Shown in pieces: positions 31,675 through 38,324 of a DNA stretch of 38,324 nt. The notes beneath the pieces are model-generated. The model saw only the letters and a program-made list of their open reading frames with translations. It ran no database searches and was not told the DNA's origin. A program made the position numbers and the translations under genes. The DNA is from a virus: the IMG/VR virus record IMGVR_UViG_3300025217_000024, positions 1-38,324 of that record; one strand, written 5' to 3'. The stretch's first letter is position 1. Each line of letters opens with the position of its first letter.

Positions 31675-33215
31675 GCCTGTCCGACGTTAAAATCCTGCTG
31701 CCATATCAGGCATCGGCTATAGCGCTCAGCCATGCGAACATGCTGCTGGTCATCGAGAAATCTCGACGCACCGGTATCACCTATGGTTTTGCGGCGGACG
31801 CGGTGTTGACCGCTGCGCCTGCCAAGCGCCCCGAAAACGTTTATTACATCGCGTACAATCTCGACATGACGCGGGAGTTCATCGGTTATGTCGGTGACTT
31901 TGCGAAGGCATTTGATGAGGTCGCCAGTTCAGCCTCAGAATTCCTGTTCGACGATGGATCGGAAAAGGGCGTCAAGGCGCTTCGGGTAGACTTCCCCTCC
32001 GGCAAGGCTGTTATCGCTCTATCGTCCAAGCCCCGATCGCTTCGCGGTATGCAGGGCAAGGTGCTGATCGACGAGGCGGCGTTCCACGATGAACTGGACG
32101 AACTGCTCAAGGCCGCCATGGCGCTCACCATGTGGGGTAGTCACGTTGTCGTCATTTCGACCCATGATGGCACCGACAATGCCTTCAACACCCTGATTGA
32201 GGAAATCCGCGAGGGTAAGAAGGAAGGTGCTGTTATGCGCCTCACACTGGCCGACGCGCTGGCGGACGGCCTTTACAAGCGCATTTGCCTCCGCACGGGC
32301 GTTACCTGGACGCCAGATGGTGAAAAGGCTTGGGAGGCATCGCTCCGCAAGCGCTATGGCGACGCGGCAGAGGAAGAACTGGACGTAATCCCATCGAAAG
32401 GCTCAGGCGTCTATCTATCGCGCGCAGTGATTAAGGCGGCAATGGCACCCGATCTGCCGGTCTTGCGACTAGCATGCCCATCCGGTTTCGAATTTGAGGA
32501 TAAAGAGTTCCGCCAAGACTTCGTACGCGAATTTCTGGAGGACAATGTTGCGCTGGGTAACAATGGTCGCTTGGGTTTTGATCCGCACCGGCGAACTTTC
32601 TTCGGCCAGGATTTCGCACGCAGCGGCGACGTATCGCCGATCGCCTTTGGCCAACATGATGAGCATCTGAACCTCATCTGCCGGTTCATCCTCGAAATGC
32701 GGAATGTGCCCTTTCGTGAACAGGAGTTTGTTCTCGACTGGATATTGAAGCGGGTCCCCAACTTCTGTGCCGGTAAGATGGACGCACGGGGCAATGGCTC
32801 ATCTCTTGCTGAAGCTATGCGCCAAGATTGGGGTGCGAACCGTGTCGAAGCCGTCATGGCAACAGACAAGACCTATCTGGCCTTCATGCCCAAACTCAAA
32901 GCCGGTCTGGAGGATCGGACATTCCAAATCCCGCTGGACGAAGGCGTGATGGAAGACCTGCGAATGGTCAAGAAGGTCAAGGGTGTCCCGAAAATTCCAG
33001 ACGCCTCGACCAACTCCAAGGCCGATGGCGACAAGGGCAAGCGGCATGGAGATAATGCTATTGCCCTGATGCATTTGATTGCGGCGGCTGATGAGGATGT
33101 CGGCCCAATGGAAGTCCATACGCTGGGCACCCACCGCGAAACGGCCCCTGAAACCGTCATCACCTCTACCGGCTTCGGCACTATCAGCCGCCGCTCCAAT
33201 GGATTATTCTTCTGA
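31671..33215 (+). CDS. Large terminase subunit (Mu gp28 type)
   Basis: The protein has 514 residues. The ATPase part has a Walker-A-like loop KSRRTG (30-35) and Walker B VLIDEAAF (131-138). The nuclease part has FFGQDFARSGD with Asp314, and a late conserved HGDNAIAL segment near residue 462. These motor proteins package DNA by headful after replicative transposition, cutting at the phage end and in host flank. It overlaps the portal gene by one base (TGATG). Confidence 0.93.
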   Translation: MSLSDVKILLPYQASAIALSHANMLLVIEKSRRTGITYGFAADAVLTAAPAKRPENVYYIAYNLDMTREFIGYVGDFAKAFDEVASSASEFLFDDGSEKGVKALRVDFPSGKAVIALSSKPRSLRGMQGKVLIDEAAFHDELDELLKAAMALTMWGSHVVVISTHDGTDNAFNTLIEEIREGKKEGAVMRLTLADALADGLYKRICLRTGVTWTPDGEKAWEASLRKRYGDAAEEELDVIPSKGSGVYLSRAVIKAAMAPDLPVLRLACPSGFEFEDKEFRQDFVREFLEDNVALGNNGRLGFDPHRRTFFGQDFARSGDVSPIAFGQHDEHLNLICRFILEMRNVPFREQEFVLDWILKRVPNFCAGKMDARGNGSSLAEAMRQDWGANRVEAVMATDKTYLAFMPKLKAGLEDRTFQIPLDEGVMEDLRMVKKVKGVPKIPDASTNSKADGDKGKRHGDNAIALMHLIAAADEDVGPMEVHTLGTHRETAPETVITSTGFGTISRRSNGLFF

Positions 33216-35296
33216 TGGCAAAGCGTCCTGCCCCCTACCGTACAGTCGGTCGCTCCGCTGTGCCCGCACCGTCACCCGAGTTGTTCAACGAGATTGCCAG
33301 CACTCGCGACGGTCGCGATATCACGCAGCCCTATGTACGCGGCCTGCGGGAGGCCAAAGACCCCAAGCTGGCGACGGCTGTCGACTGGGGTGCCTATGAT
33401 GTCGTGTTCAACGACGATCAGGTGTTTTCGACGATGCAGCAACGCATCGGCGCGGTCGTGGCGCGGGACTGGAACGTCATTGCGGGCGATGATAAAGACC
33501 CGCGCGCGGAAAAAGCCGCAGACGCATTCGACAAGACAATGAAGGCGCTGCCGTGGGACCGCACCACGCGCAAGATGCTAATGGCCAGCTTCAATGGCTA
33601 CAGCGTCGCCGAATTGATGTGGGGCTATCGCGGTGGCCTGTTCGACATCGTTGGCTTGAAGGTCCGTCATGCGCGCCGCTTCCGCTACGATGACGAAGAC
33701 CGTCTGCGGATGCTGACACCCACGAATATGCAGGGCATTATCATGCCTGAACGCAAATTCTGGGTCCATGCGGTTGGCGCTGCTGACGATGATCAGCCTT
33801 ATGGTCAGGGACTGGCGCATTGGCTGTATTGGCCCACCCTTTTCAAGCGCAACGGCATACGCTTCTGGAACATCTTTCTCGATAAATTCGGAACGCCCAC
33901 GGCTAAGGGCACCTATCCGCGCGGGTCGAGCAAGGAGGACATCAACAAGCTGCTACTCGCGCTTCAGGCGATTGCGACAGACAGCGGTTTCGTTGTGCCC
34001 GAGGGCATGGTGGTCGAACTTCTCGGCGCGGCCCGGTCTGGCACCGGCGATTATCACCAGCTCTGCCTCTACATGGATGCAGCCATCGCCAAGGTCGTCC
34101 TGTCGCAGACGATGACCACAGACAACGGTTCCTCCCGGTCCCAGGGTGAAGTCCATGCCGGTGTGAAGCTGGAAGTGGTCAAGACCGACGCTGATGATCT
34201 GACTGACAGCTTCACCACGCAGGTCGCCCGCTGGTGGACCGACTATAATTACGGTCCTGATGTCGCTGCACCGATTGTGCGGCGCATCGTCGAGGAAGAA
34301 GAGGACACGAAGGCCAACGCCGAGACCGACAAACTCCATGGCGAGAATGGCTGGGTCCGCACCGAGGACAGCTTCCGCAACACCTATGGCGAGGGCTTCG
34401 TTCGTCGAGACGACAAAGATGCACCGTCCGGGTCGCAGCCGCCAGCAAAGGTTGAAAAGTTCGGCCATGATGCGGTGCCACCCCCCGCAAATGACGATAC
34501 AGTGCCACCGGCAAAGATCGCCAGCTTCGCCGCCGACGATCCGCGCCCGCTCTATGTCTATCGTCAGCTCCTCAATGCCAGCGAGCTTTTGGATTGGGCA
34601 CGGACGCAGGGTTTCGCATCGACATTGTCTGCCGACGACCTTCATGTAACACAGGCCTATTCGAAGCGGCCCGTTAATTGGTTCGCCATGGGGCAGTCTG
34701 GCCCTGGTCCCAGCACCGGCACCGGAGACCTAATTGTTGGTCCCGGGGGACCGCGCCGGGTCGAACGTATGGGCGATGGCAACGCCATTGCATTGCTGTT
34801 TCAATCCTTAGACCTGCAATGGCGGCATCGCGAAATGCGCGATGCCGGAGCAAGCTGGGATCATCCTAGCTATCTCCCCCACGTTACCCTCACCTATGAT
34901 GCTGGGGACGTCGATCTGTCGAAAGTCCAGCCCTATCAAGGTCGCCTCATATTCGGCCCGGAGCGTTTCGAAGCGATCCAGTCCGACTGGAACGACAGCC
35001 TAGAGGAAGTCCCGACCGCCGCCAGCTTTGCCGAAGGTGACGACGATAACCACGACGACGCTGATAGCATCGTCGATCGCATGATCGCGGAGGATGGCTA
35101 TCGGGTCGCTAATGCGATGACTGGTACCATCGTTGATCGCCTTCTTGCCGCCGACAGTGAAACCGAAGCCCGCGCTATCCTCGCCGACGCGCTGGGCATG
35201 ATGGACGAGCAGCCCTTGATCCAGGCAATCGAGCGCGCGGGCTTCGCCGTACAGCTCGACGCCGCCACCCAGACCGCCCCACAGGGAGAAAACTAA
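33215..35296 (+). CDS. Portal protein (DUF935) with inserted 2H-phosphoesterase (Acb1-like) domain
   Basis: The protein has 693 residues, far above the 500 or so of Mu gp29. The DUF935 portal core covers about residues 1-420 ([32 protein letters not shown]-type segments). Residues about 443-588 ([20 protein letters not shown]) form a separate domain with two H-x-T motifs, His477-Val-Thr479 ([12 protein letters not shown]) and His556-Val-Thr558 ([10 protein letters not shown]). GASWDHPSY lies just before the second motif. This is the signature of 2H phosphoesterases and resembles Acb1, the anti-CBASS nuclease of T4. After it the usual DUF935 tail resumes ([19 protein letters not shown]), so the domain is inserted, not appended. 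The portal forms the channel ring at one vertex. The enzymatic activity is inferred from motifs. Confidence 0.9.
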
Positions 35297-35538
35297 TGAC
35301 GACTGACAATGTCGCTGGTGAACATTTGCGCCTGCTGATCGAGCGCATTGAGCGCTTGGAGGAAGAAAAGAAGGGCACGAACGATGACATCAAGGATGTT
35401 TATCTGGAGGGCAAGGCGACCGGCTATGATCCCAAGATGATGCGGGAAGTCGTGCGCCTGCGGAAAATGAAGCCCCATGACCGCCAGGAAATGGAAGCCA
35501 TCCTCCAGAGTTACCTTGCCGCGCTGGGCATGGAATGA
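35296..35538 (+). CDS. GapR/DUF2312 family DNA-binding protein
   Basis: The protein has 80 residues. [20 protein letters not shown], then [20 protein letters not shown] and the [12 protein letters not shown] ending, match the GapR family. In Caulobacter, GapR is a nucleoid-associated protein that clamps overtwisted DNA ahead of replication and transcription forks. The gene follows the portal gene with a one-base overlap, so it is translated with the head genes. It is full length and should dimerise through its coiled coil. Confidence 0.92.
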
Positions 35539-35543
35539 TGCAT

Positions 35544-35858
35544 TTACTCGAAATGCCACCCTATTTCCGTAGATCCCTTGTGCTGTGCAAACGTCAGCCA
35601 GATAGGGCCGATGCATTGTTCGCAGCTAAAGCGAATGGTCATGCCTTCCCGGCGAAGGCTCGGATTGCCCTCGTTCGAAACACCATGCTGCACCTTCACG
35701 TCCGCACCATCGACAGTGATGCGCGTGACTTCCTCAGCGTCTTCCTTTCGATCAAAAAAAACAGTCTCGCCATGATGCAGATTATCTGCGCCACAACGAG
35801 GACAGAGAAGGTCTGCCATGCTGCCTGCGTCTACGGTCTTAATCAGCTTCGAATTCAT
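35544..35858 (-). CDS. Zinc-ribbon moron gene on the opposite strand
   Basis: The protein has 104 residues. CPRCGADNLHHG near the N-terminus and FSCEQC toward the C-terminus form a zinc ribbon around a central beta region. ATG 35858 has a perfect Shine-Dalgarno (AAGGAGG) 6 bases upstream. Possible promoter elements on the minus strand, TTGAGG and TATTTA with 17-base spacing (about 35871-35899), suggest its own promoter. It sits between the GapR-like and F genes and breaks the rightward arm. A lysogen-expressed cargo gene (moron) is likely. A similar protein family occurs in bacteria and phages but has no known function to me. Confidence 0.75.
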   Translation of the reverse strand: MNSKLIKTVDAGSMADLLCPRCGADNLHHGETVFFDRKEDAEEVTRITVDGADVKVQHGVSNEGNPSLRREGMTIRFSCEQCIGPIWLTFAQHKGSTEIGWHFE

Positions 35859-35961: not shown

Positions 35962-37191
35962 GTGGCTGATCCGCTCGGCTCTTCCATTTTCCTGAAGCCA
36001 GACGACGTTGTCCGCGCCTTTGCGGCGCGTGGCGCGCTGCAACCGACGGTGCGTTGGTCGGAAATGATGCATGCCGACCATGCCGTTGCATTCACCGTGG
36101 CGAAGATCGCAAAACTGGACCTTCTCCGCACAATGCGCGCGTCGATCGCTGACGTTCTGGAAAATGGTGGCACCTACCAAGAGTGGAAGGCTAGCATCCT
36201 GCCCGAACTGAAAAAGGCGGGATGGTGGGGTGCAGTCACCAATGCGGAACTAACCGGCACGGATGAGACGATTATCGTTAACAACCGCCGCCTGCGTACC
36301 ATCTACAACACCAACGTCCGCATGAGCATGGCGAGCGGCCATTGGACACGCATTCAGCGTCAAAAGGACATACTGCCCTATCTCCGCTATTTGCCTTCGA
36401 CATCGGAGCATAAACGGCCCCTTCATATGGGCTGGTATGGCATCCTCCTGCCCGTCGATCATCCGTTCTGGCAGACACATTTCCCGCCCAATGGTTGGGG
36501 ATGCAAATGTCACTTTGAGCAGGTCTCGGAACGCAAGATGAAGCGGATGGGCTGGAGCGTGACGCCAGACGATCAGCTTCCCCAGGGCAGCACGATTTTC
36601 TTACCTGCAGCAGGCGATCCCATATCCGTGCCCAACGGCATCGACCCCGGGTTCAGCTATAACCCCGGCACTGCCCATCTGCGCGCGGTCGCTGCGAAGG
36701 CGGTCACGTCGCTTCGCGATGCCGCCGACGCCGGATTGAATGCCGCTGCCGATGCTACCCTTCGCGAAATCATCGCTGATCCCGCCTTCGATCAATTCCT
36801 TGGACTGCCAAAGGGCATCTTCCCCATAGCTATTCTCGACTCGTCGCAACGAGACGCGATCCAGGCGCGCGGTCGAGTCGTTGTCATGCCCGAAGGCGTC
36901 TATCGCAAACAACGGGGCGATCTCCCCCAAGTCTCCCGTGGCCATCCCGAACTGACGCCGGATGATTATCGCTTGCTGCCCGATATCATGGCGCGCGCTC
37001 TGGTCGTCGCCCAGCAGGGCATGAACAAGCTGATCTTTTTCTCTGATGCCGCTGGCAATGTGTGGAAGGCTGTAGTGCGGCAGGACGCCGGTGACGATCT
37101 GCCCGTGTTGGTCAGTTTTCACCGAAGTCGTCCACGCAACATAGCGGCGGAAACACGTAATCTCGCCATTCTGCTGGATCGGCGGCAATGA
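35962..37191 (+). CDS. Minor head protein F (Mu gpF) with C-terminal PBECR-like nuclease domain
   Basis: The protein has 409 residues from GTG 35962. Residues 1-200 are a Mu F-like head morphogenesis domain with TIYNTNVRMSMASGHW and the PPNGWGCKCHFEQVSE segment (about 173-188). Residues about 290-400 (ILDSSQRDAIQARGRVVVMP; RGHPELTPDDYRLLPDIM; VWKAVVRQD; LVSFHRSRPRN) resemble the phage Barnase-EndoU-ColicinE5/D-RelE-like nucleases (PBECR) that are found on gpF-type proteins. Mu F is packaged at the portal vertex, so the nuclease could be ejected into the cell. The nuclease reading is by pattern. Confidence 0.85.
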   Translation: MADPLGSSIFLKPDDVVRAFAARGALQPTVRWSEMMHADHAVAFTVAKIAKLDLLRTMRASIADVLENGGTYQEWKASILPELKKAGWWGAVTNAELTGTDETIIVNNRRLRTIYNTNVRMSMASGHWTRIQRQKDILPYLRYLPSTSEHKRPLHMGWYGILLPVDHPFWQTHFPPNGWGCKCHFEQVSERKMKRMGWSVTPDDQLPQGSTIFLPAAGDPISVPNGIDPGFSYNPGTAHLRAVAAKAVTSLRDAADAGLNAAADATLREIIADPAFDQFLGLPKGIFPIAILDSSQRDAIQARGRVVVMPEGVYRKQRGDLPQVSRGHPELTPDDYRLLPDIMARALVVAQQGMNKLIFFSDAAGNVWKAVVRQDAGDDLPVLVSFHRSRPRNIAAETRNLAILLDRRQ

Positions 37192-37466
37192 TGGAAAGGG
37201 CGATGCGCGGCAGGGACTTCCTGTCCCCTGCTATGCGGTCAACGGCCATTGGCCTGACGCAACGGAGGGAAGAATTCACCGCGTCGCGCGCATCGTCATA
37301 CACATATACGCCTAAACTAGGCGTTTTTCAATTCGCCGCCAGTTGGCGGGGGAAAGGGCGCGCCAACGCCCCAAGCCGACGGTCTCTACCCGCCATGATC
37401 CGACCGGCACCTGCCGGATGCATCCCGCCATCCAACGCTGGACGGCGCGAACACATAGAGAACATA
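37192..37466 (+). other. Intergenic region between gene F and the methylase
   Basis: This 275-bp stretch contains the terminator at 37308-37328 and otherwise no supported gene. An open frame continues upstream of the methylase start, but it contains the terminator, shows no domain-like residues, and its ATG codons have no convincing Shine-Dalgarno. The methylase promoter probably lies between 37330 and 37460; no clear consensus element was found. Confidence 0.6.
37308..37328 (+). terminator. Intrinsic terminator after gene F
   Basis: ACGCCTA (37308-37314) and TAGGCGT (37318-37324) form a perfect 7-bp stem with a 3-base AAC loop, followed by T residues to 37328. It lies 117 bp after the stop of the F gene and about 140 bp before the methylase start. 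It should end the rightward head transcript and isolate the methylase gene. Confidence 0.85.
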
Positions 37467-38324
37467 GTGAAAGAGTCGAGTCTGTTTTCATCGTCACTGC
37501 ATACGCCTGAAAATGCCGTTGCAACGTCCCTTCAACCCGTCGATCCTGTCCGGCCAGCCGCGCCTTATATCGGCGGCAAGCGCAATCTTGCTAAGCGGGT
37601 AATCGCCCGCATCAATGCCGTGCCTCACCACACCTATGCGGAGGTTTTCGTTGGCATGGGCGGCATATTCCTGCGCCGTGACCTCTGCCCAAAGGTCGAG
37701 GTGATCAACGACTGGTCGGAGGATGTATCGACCTTCTTCCGCGTTCTTCAGCACCACTATGTCGCCTTCCTCGACATGATCCGGTTTCAGATCGCATCGA
37801 GAGCGGGATTTGAAAAGCTGCTGGCCCTTGACCCTTCGTCACTTACCGACCTTCAGCGCTCTGCCCGCTTTCTTTACCTCCAACGCCTGAGCTTTGGCGG
37901 CAAGGTTGCTAGTCGGTCGTTCGGGATGTCACCGCTCAATGCCAGCCGTTTTGACATCACCAAGCTCGGCCCCATGCTGGAGGCATTGCACGAACGCATC
38001 GCACCTGTGACGATAGAACGCCTCCGGTGGCAGGATTTCCTGACCCGTTACGATCGCCCCGGCACACTGTTCTATCTCGACCCGCCCTACGTCAACTGCG
38101 AAGGAGACTATGGCGCAGGCATGTTCGGACAGGGCGAATTTGAAGAAATGGCGGCGCGGCTAGGGGCGCTGCAAGGCCGCTTCATCCTTAGCTTGAATGA
38201 CCATCCGATGGTGCGCCGCCTGTTCGCCAGCTTCGCGATTGAAGAAGTGAAAACGACCTATCAGGTAGGCGGGAACGGGAAGGCAAAATCCGCCCTCGAA
38301 CTTATCATCAGCAGCGCCACCTGA
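37467..38324 (+). CDS. dam: Dam-type DNA adenine N6-methyltransferase
   Basis: The protein has 285 residues from GTG 37467. The methyl-donor motif is APYIGGKRNLAKRVI (about residues 31-45), the family's FVGMGGIFLR segment follows, and the catalytic DPPY motif appears as FYLDPPYVNCEGDYG (about 206-220). The order matches the alpha-class Dam family. The sequence N-terminal of the GTG has no domain-like residues, so I reject the longer frame from 37188. It is the last gene before the unseen right end, the place where Mu keeps its DNA modification gene mom. A role in protection from restriction or in self-regulation is inferred. Confidence 0.9.
   Translation: MKESSLFSSSLHTPENAVATSLQPVDPVRPAAPYIGGKRNLAKRVIARINAVPHHTYAEVFVGMGGIFLRRDLCPKVEVINDWSEDVSTFFRVLQHHYVAFLDMIRFQIASRAGFEKLLALDPSSLTDLQRSARFLYLQRLSFGGKVASRSFGMSPLNASRFDITKLGPMLEALHERIAPVTIERLRWQDFLTRYDRPGTLFYLDPPYVNCEGDYGAGMFGQGEFEEMAARLGALQGRFILSLNDHPMVRRLFASFAIEEVKTTYQVGGNGKAKSALELIISSAT

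Follow-up and report, generated by a model that had tools for sequence, protein, structure and literature searches.

A predicted BECR-fold domain at the C terminus of minor head protein F in a temperate Mu-like phage that also carries a portal Acb1 domain

Our analysis indicates that the minor head protein F of a temperate Mu-like phage ends in a BECR-fold domain, which probably serves as an endoribonuclease or RNA-binding payload, with an Acb1 domain in the neighboring portal protein as a second payload. The F gene occupies positions 35962-37191 on the + strand of the window, i.e., the whole stretch of 38,324 nucleotides that was analyzed (IMG/VR record IMGVR_UViG_3300025217_000024). These coordinates, taken from the initial annotation, are correct and delimit a GTG-start ORF that encodes a gp30-like protein of 409 aa. 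A Pfam scan placed PF04233 (Phage_Mu_F) at residues 59-185 (6.5e-13), phrog_220 ("minor head protein and DNA pilot") matched at 2.5e-75 with an alignment that reaches residue 375, and Mu gp30 aligned with F from end to end at 29% identity. The MuF domain (36136-36516, +), defined by the Pfam stretch and by invariant columns, terminates in a conserved PPNGWGCKC motif and is encoded within the packaging module, where the portal gene lies upstream and two small genes lie in between. Residues 237-280 (36670-36801, +) form a predicted helical linker, with helices at positions 2-20, 24-36, and 38-45 of the AlphaFold2 (AF2) tail model and a helical conformation in the full-length model too. The linker leads to the PBECR/MuF_C-like tail domain, residues 285-409 (36814-37188, +), which was delineated with AF2, VIA-align, and hhalign with shuffled controls.

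The close relatives of F came from viral contigs and from one Sphingobium faniae contig. The phage has prophage relatives in Sphingobium, and the genome is Mu-like, with markers of a temperate lifestyle of this type (S24 repressor, GemA, Gp27, and Gp36). The tail was intact in all close relatives. Over residues 237-409 or 300-409, dN was about 0.08 to 0.29 against a dS of about 0.9 to 2.8, and the resulting dN/dS of about 0.1 was similar to that of the MuF domain. The tail of F is a separate, genuine domain under purifying selection.

The initial annotation had proposed that the C-terminal ∼120 residues of F are nuclease-like. Direct HMMER scans yielded no Pfam match for the tail of the window protein, which did not reach the curated Pfam cutoff of the PBECR or MuF_C models; scans of F against Pfam, PHROG, NCBIfam, and PADLOC returned MuF-type matches only, none of which names the tail domain, and phmmer gave no match in the PDB. 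Searches with PF18819 and PF18812 in the genomes and viral records behind the close relatives found nothing above the cutoff. Weaker matches were present among the relatives of F, all below the curated cutoff for PBECR3 and MuF_C: PBECR3 was matched by 13 of 73 MuF tails at an E value of ≤1 (best, 1.5e-7), including one (L091) at 2.8e-5 over 97 profile positions, and the Mu gp30 tail matched MuF_C (PF18819) at 7e-5. Of the same 73 tails, 6 matched PBECR2. We then compared profiles with hhalign, using as a query a profile built from 30 F tails. It matched the members of MuF_C (78%, 1.8e-5), those of PBECR3 (44%, 2.4e-4), and the F tails with an H-x4-H motif (98.5%, 3.3e-15), and each of these scores exceeded those of 40 column-shuffled controls and of the reversed profile. 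The proposed relationship to the nuclease clan is therefore borne out by these matches, and profile-level homology of the F tail to PBECR and MuF_C members of the BECR clan is present.

Folded alone, residues 237-409 gave an AF2 model of high confidence (pLDDT, 94.4; pTM, 0.90). In the full-length model, the confidence of the tail stayed high and the MuF part was weaker. In the order of the tail model, helices at positions 77-82, 97-100, and 103-108 are followed by strands at 112-116, 120-127, 130-137, and 146-153 and then by a helix and a strand at 166-170. Foldseek returned nothing from the PDB at an E value of ≤0.001, and structures were compared in a second look with VIA-align, applied to the ∼1,000 (999) PDB chains ranked top by Foldseek. 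The best match was the RNase toxin BrnT (Z, 6.1; 75 aligned residues; 3.0 Å), followed by a Salmonella toxin-antitoxin complex (7vd7; Z, 5.7); CdiA-CT from Kp342 (Z, 5.2; 91 aligned residues), a Serratia CDI complex (Z, 4.4), and several RelE structures (Z, 3.8 to 3.9) were also retrieved. Most of the leading matches are ribonucleases of the BECR fold class, at Z values of about 4 to 6, all below 8, a range for which the tool warns that a common arrangement may be the cause. Among the viral models nearest to the tail model are minor capsid proteins as well as large proteins with a nuclease annotation. Such Z values, and the absence of a direct Pfam match, would also be expected if the likeness to BECR were a chance small alpha/beta arrangement; we consider this very unlikely, as sequence profiles and structure independently indicate the BECR clan. 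Together, the profile-profile comparison, the subthreshold PBECR3 relatives, and the high-confidence fold model support the placement of residues ∼285-409 in the BECR ribonuclease fold, in the PBECR/MuF_C neighborhood, so the predicted nuclease-like character of the tail is upheld.

The tail shares its helix-plus-strands order with PBECR3 (PF18812) and with the H-x4-H F tails, from which it differs in its candidate active site. We ranked residue conservation over the 173 columns of an alignment of 39 tails. His328 (36943-36945, +), a second histidine and the candidate catalytic one, ranked 2 of 173, with H in 31/39 tails and Arg in 5/39. Candidate catalytic S/T and basic residues were found at Ser385 and His387-Arg388 (37114-37125, +) from the tail alignment and the model. 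Ser385 (S/T in 36/39 tails; rank 12 of 173) falls inside model strand 146-153, the fourth strand after the helix, which is where Iyer et al. (2017, PMC5512222) place a Ser/Thr in PBECR domains. The first PBECR-type histidine is replaced by Lys316, which precedes Gln317 on the N-terminal helix (36907-36912, +) in both the tail and the profile alignments. Position 316 is K in 29 of the 39 tails and aligns opposite the first H of the H-x4-H tails, and position 317 is Q, K, or H in all 39 (Gln317; rank 4 of 173). Across the tails, the PBECR-type pair of His328 and Ser385 is conserved, but the first histidine is not. The tail alignments also revealed a 7-residue insertion at 319-325 (GDLPQVS; 36916-36936, +) in the helix/loop preceding His328, and this insertion was limited to the closest clade of the window (6 sequences).

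The F tail therefore keeps a Lys/Gln-His...Ser/Thr-(His/Arg) residue set. The active residues of CdiA-CT from Kp342 are K157, Y160, H170, R252, and T255 (PMC9086364), and since this toxin uses Lys, His, Arg, and Thr, a combination of Lys, His, Thr/Ser, and Arg is a working BECR set. By analogy, it is plausible that the Lys/His/Ser/Arg set of the F tail is compatible with RNase activity. CdiA-CT Kp342 and the other best solved-structure matches (colicin D-like tRNases, BrnT, and RelE) share about 6 to 11% identity with the tail and differ in delivery. Catalysis is plausible but unproven because the first PBECR histidine is Lys316. The same replacement would fit a BECR domain that has lost catalysis and instead serves head assembly or DNA piloting, either structurally or by binding RNA or DNA, a role proposed for Mu gp30. 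Iyer et al. 2017 (PMC5512222) described the PBECR/MuF-C tail in Mu gp30, predicted its orthologues to be active, and judged Mu's own MuF_C inactive. The F tail is kept across highly divergent Mu-like phages and has no adjacent immunity gene, which would also suit a domain without activity. However, H328 and S/T385 are among the best-conserved columns, active BECR tRNases use Lys, His, and Thr, and many MuF proteins, in Pseudomonas and Desulfobacteraceae, are tail-less, showing that assembly in general can proceed without it. Mu gp30 is a homologous protein with its MuF_C domain in the same post-MuF position, but the window tail has no MuF_C match of its own and keeps H328 and S385, whereas the Mu residue aligned at 328 is not a histidine. 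Inactivation of the kind suggested for Mu is possible for the F tail but, in our judgment, somewhat unlikely.

The initial annotation had also described a separate effector domain in the adjacent portal, and we identified it as Acb1, a 2H phosphoesterase with anti-CBASS function. The Mu-type (gp29-like) portal has 693 aa (33215-35296, +; Portal_Mu, 2.1e-97, residues 61-392), and the inserted domain occupies residues 445-594 in its C-terminal region (34547-34996, +; PF23474, 2.4e-39) with both HxT motifs intact (HVT at His477 and His556). It matched the portal of cyanophage Pam3 (8hds; 5.1e-30) and Acb1 (7t26; 5.8e-8), and Acb1 of T4 cuts CBASS cyclic nucleotides (PMC9117128). The Pam3 portal also has Acb1 on its C-terminal side, at 39% identity, but the window portal keeps ∼100 further C-terminal residues after Acb1. 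Portal-Acb1 fusions were found in other phages besides Pam3. The cryo-EM model of Mu lacks the C-terminal 124 residues of gp29, whose removal was attributed to protease I (PMC11915804). The Acb1 insert is located in the portal segment corresponding to the one missing from the mature Mu portal, so Acb1 could be released inside the head, and by this analogy it may be cut loose in the head of our phage.

Portal Acb1 was present in 18 fetched loci of the clade, and its presence or absence differs among close relatives. Two loci (L004 and L008) keep the F tail with a portal without Acb1. Conversely, Pam3, Ssp-JY40, Erebus, and RHEph04 combine a portal Acb1 with a short tail-less MuF-type protein, in contrast to the tailed MuF protein of the window. 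We therefore rejected the idea that the F tail and portal Acb1 form an obligate pair; they are independent cassettes, and their pairing is common in the clade. This bears on the reading of the F tail as an injected anti-defense factor, acting against RNA-based or CBASS-linked immunity and paired with portal Acb1. The recurrence of Acb1 in the clade loci would agree with it, as would the suggestion of Iyer et al. (PMC5512222) that PBECR may cleave CRISPR RNAs, but the independent occurrence of the two domains in L004, L008, and the Pam3-type phages argues against it, and we regard it as unlikely.

The DNA around F bears on another reading, in which the tail is a MuF polymorphic toxin, a growth-inhibiting RNase sent to competitors from which an immunity protein shields lysogens. 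Temperate phages are known to encode MuF toxins that end in nuclease domains (Jamet et al. 2017, PMC5576092), and these toxins resemble F in joining a MuF head domain to an effector-like C-terminal extension. The fold relatives of the tail include CDI toxins, and the tail slot of MuF relatives also carries PBECR2 and an ADP-ribosyltransferase-like tail. However, 89% of MuF toxin genes have a small ORF after them (PMC5576092), whereas an immunity-like small ORF is absent directly 3' of F: we found 275 nt of conserved, apparently noncoding DNA (37192-37466, +) and then a D12-class adenine methylase gene with a likely GTG start at 37467 (37467-38324, +; PF02086, 1e-14; phrog_56, 3.6e-74). The noncoding stretch, defined by DNA alignment and a terminator scan, contains a terminator-like hairpin at 37308-37324 and had no Rfam match. 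The small genes between the portal and F also speak against this reading, being a GapR-like gene and a poorly conserved zinc-ribbon-like moron. Altogether, we consider a toxin sent to competitors to be quite unlikely.

The GapR-like gene (35296-35538, +; PF10073, 1.1e-32) encodes a small DNA-binding protein with relatives in L006, L008, L031, and L032, and its ATG overlaps the portal stop. The zinc-ribbon-like gene (104 aa) lies on the opposite strand (35544-35858, −) and looks like a moron; among the loci searched, L004 alone had a relative of it (52% identity). Downstream of F, the methylase ORF could be extended N-terminally over 37188-37466, but we rejected this extension as coding sequence, since the DNA alignment and the hairpin suggest a conserved noncoding stretch. 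L004 and L008 contain ∼0.8 to 0.9 kb of extra sequence between the two conserved blocks of this stretch, which suggests an insertion site.

Both types of fusion have been known since 2017, when Iyer et al. (PMC5512222) described fusions of 2H and PBECR domains to portal or MuF proteins; what is new here is the Lys variant, the active-site insertion, and their occurrence in a phage that has a portal Acb1 too. Jamet et al. 2017 (PMC5576092) left many proteobacterial MuF extensions, including Ct_MAD, unassigned. The model built from the cryo-EM data on Mu contains no MuF protein (PMC11915804), and the JBD30 structural model, in the parts of its description that were covered, does not include one either. 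In other phages (L069, L086, L073, and L100), the MuF tail slot is occupied by other effector-like domains, namely, ADP-ribosyltransferase-like tails (Treponema) and zincin-like tails with an HE..H motif (Spirochaetales and Methylomonas). In the relatives L017-L022, F is longer, at about 600 aa, and its C-terminal part is a different domain.

We thus favor the reading of the F tail as a BECR-fold payload, which would be either a metal-independent endoribonuclease or a derivative of one that binds RNA. From what is known of the Mu family, F would carry the tail into the head near the portal, and the tail would be delivered with the DNA or just ahead of it. It would then act on host or early-infection RNA and aid establishment rather than kill a rival. 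Portal Acb1 would be a second, independent payload, which maturation cleavage of the portal may free inside the head. At the vertex through which its DNA leaves, the phage may therefore carry two enzymes directed at defense or at the host. The view in the initial annotation that the vertex may carry weapons or tools acting at entry is plausible, and a weapon that kills loses support because no immunity-like small ORF lies directly 3' of F. A bolder version, which we hold to be doubtful, is that the virion preloads two enzymes at one vertex, a Lys-His-Ser BECR RNase on F and a portal Acb1 that maturation frees and that breaks down CBASS signals as soon as infection begins, and that structural genes would serve as exchangeable entry-stage counterdefense cassettes.

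The clade keeps candidate catalytic residues that were apparently lost in Mu and has portal Acb1 in addition. The parts worth testing are the pairing of the F tail with Acb1 and the idea that portal maturation may free Acb1, and the clade offers a natural system in which to ask if virions of the Mu type bring enzymes into the cell along with their DNA.
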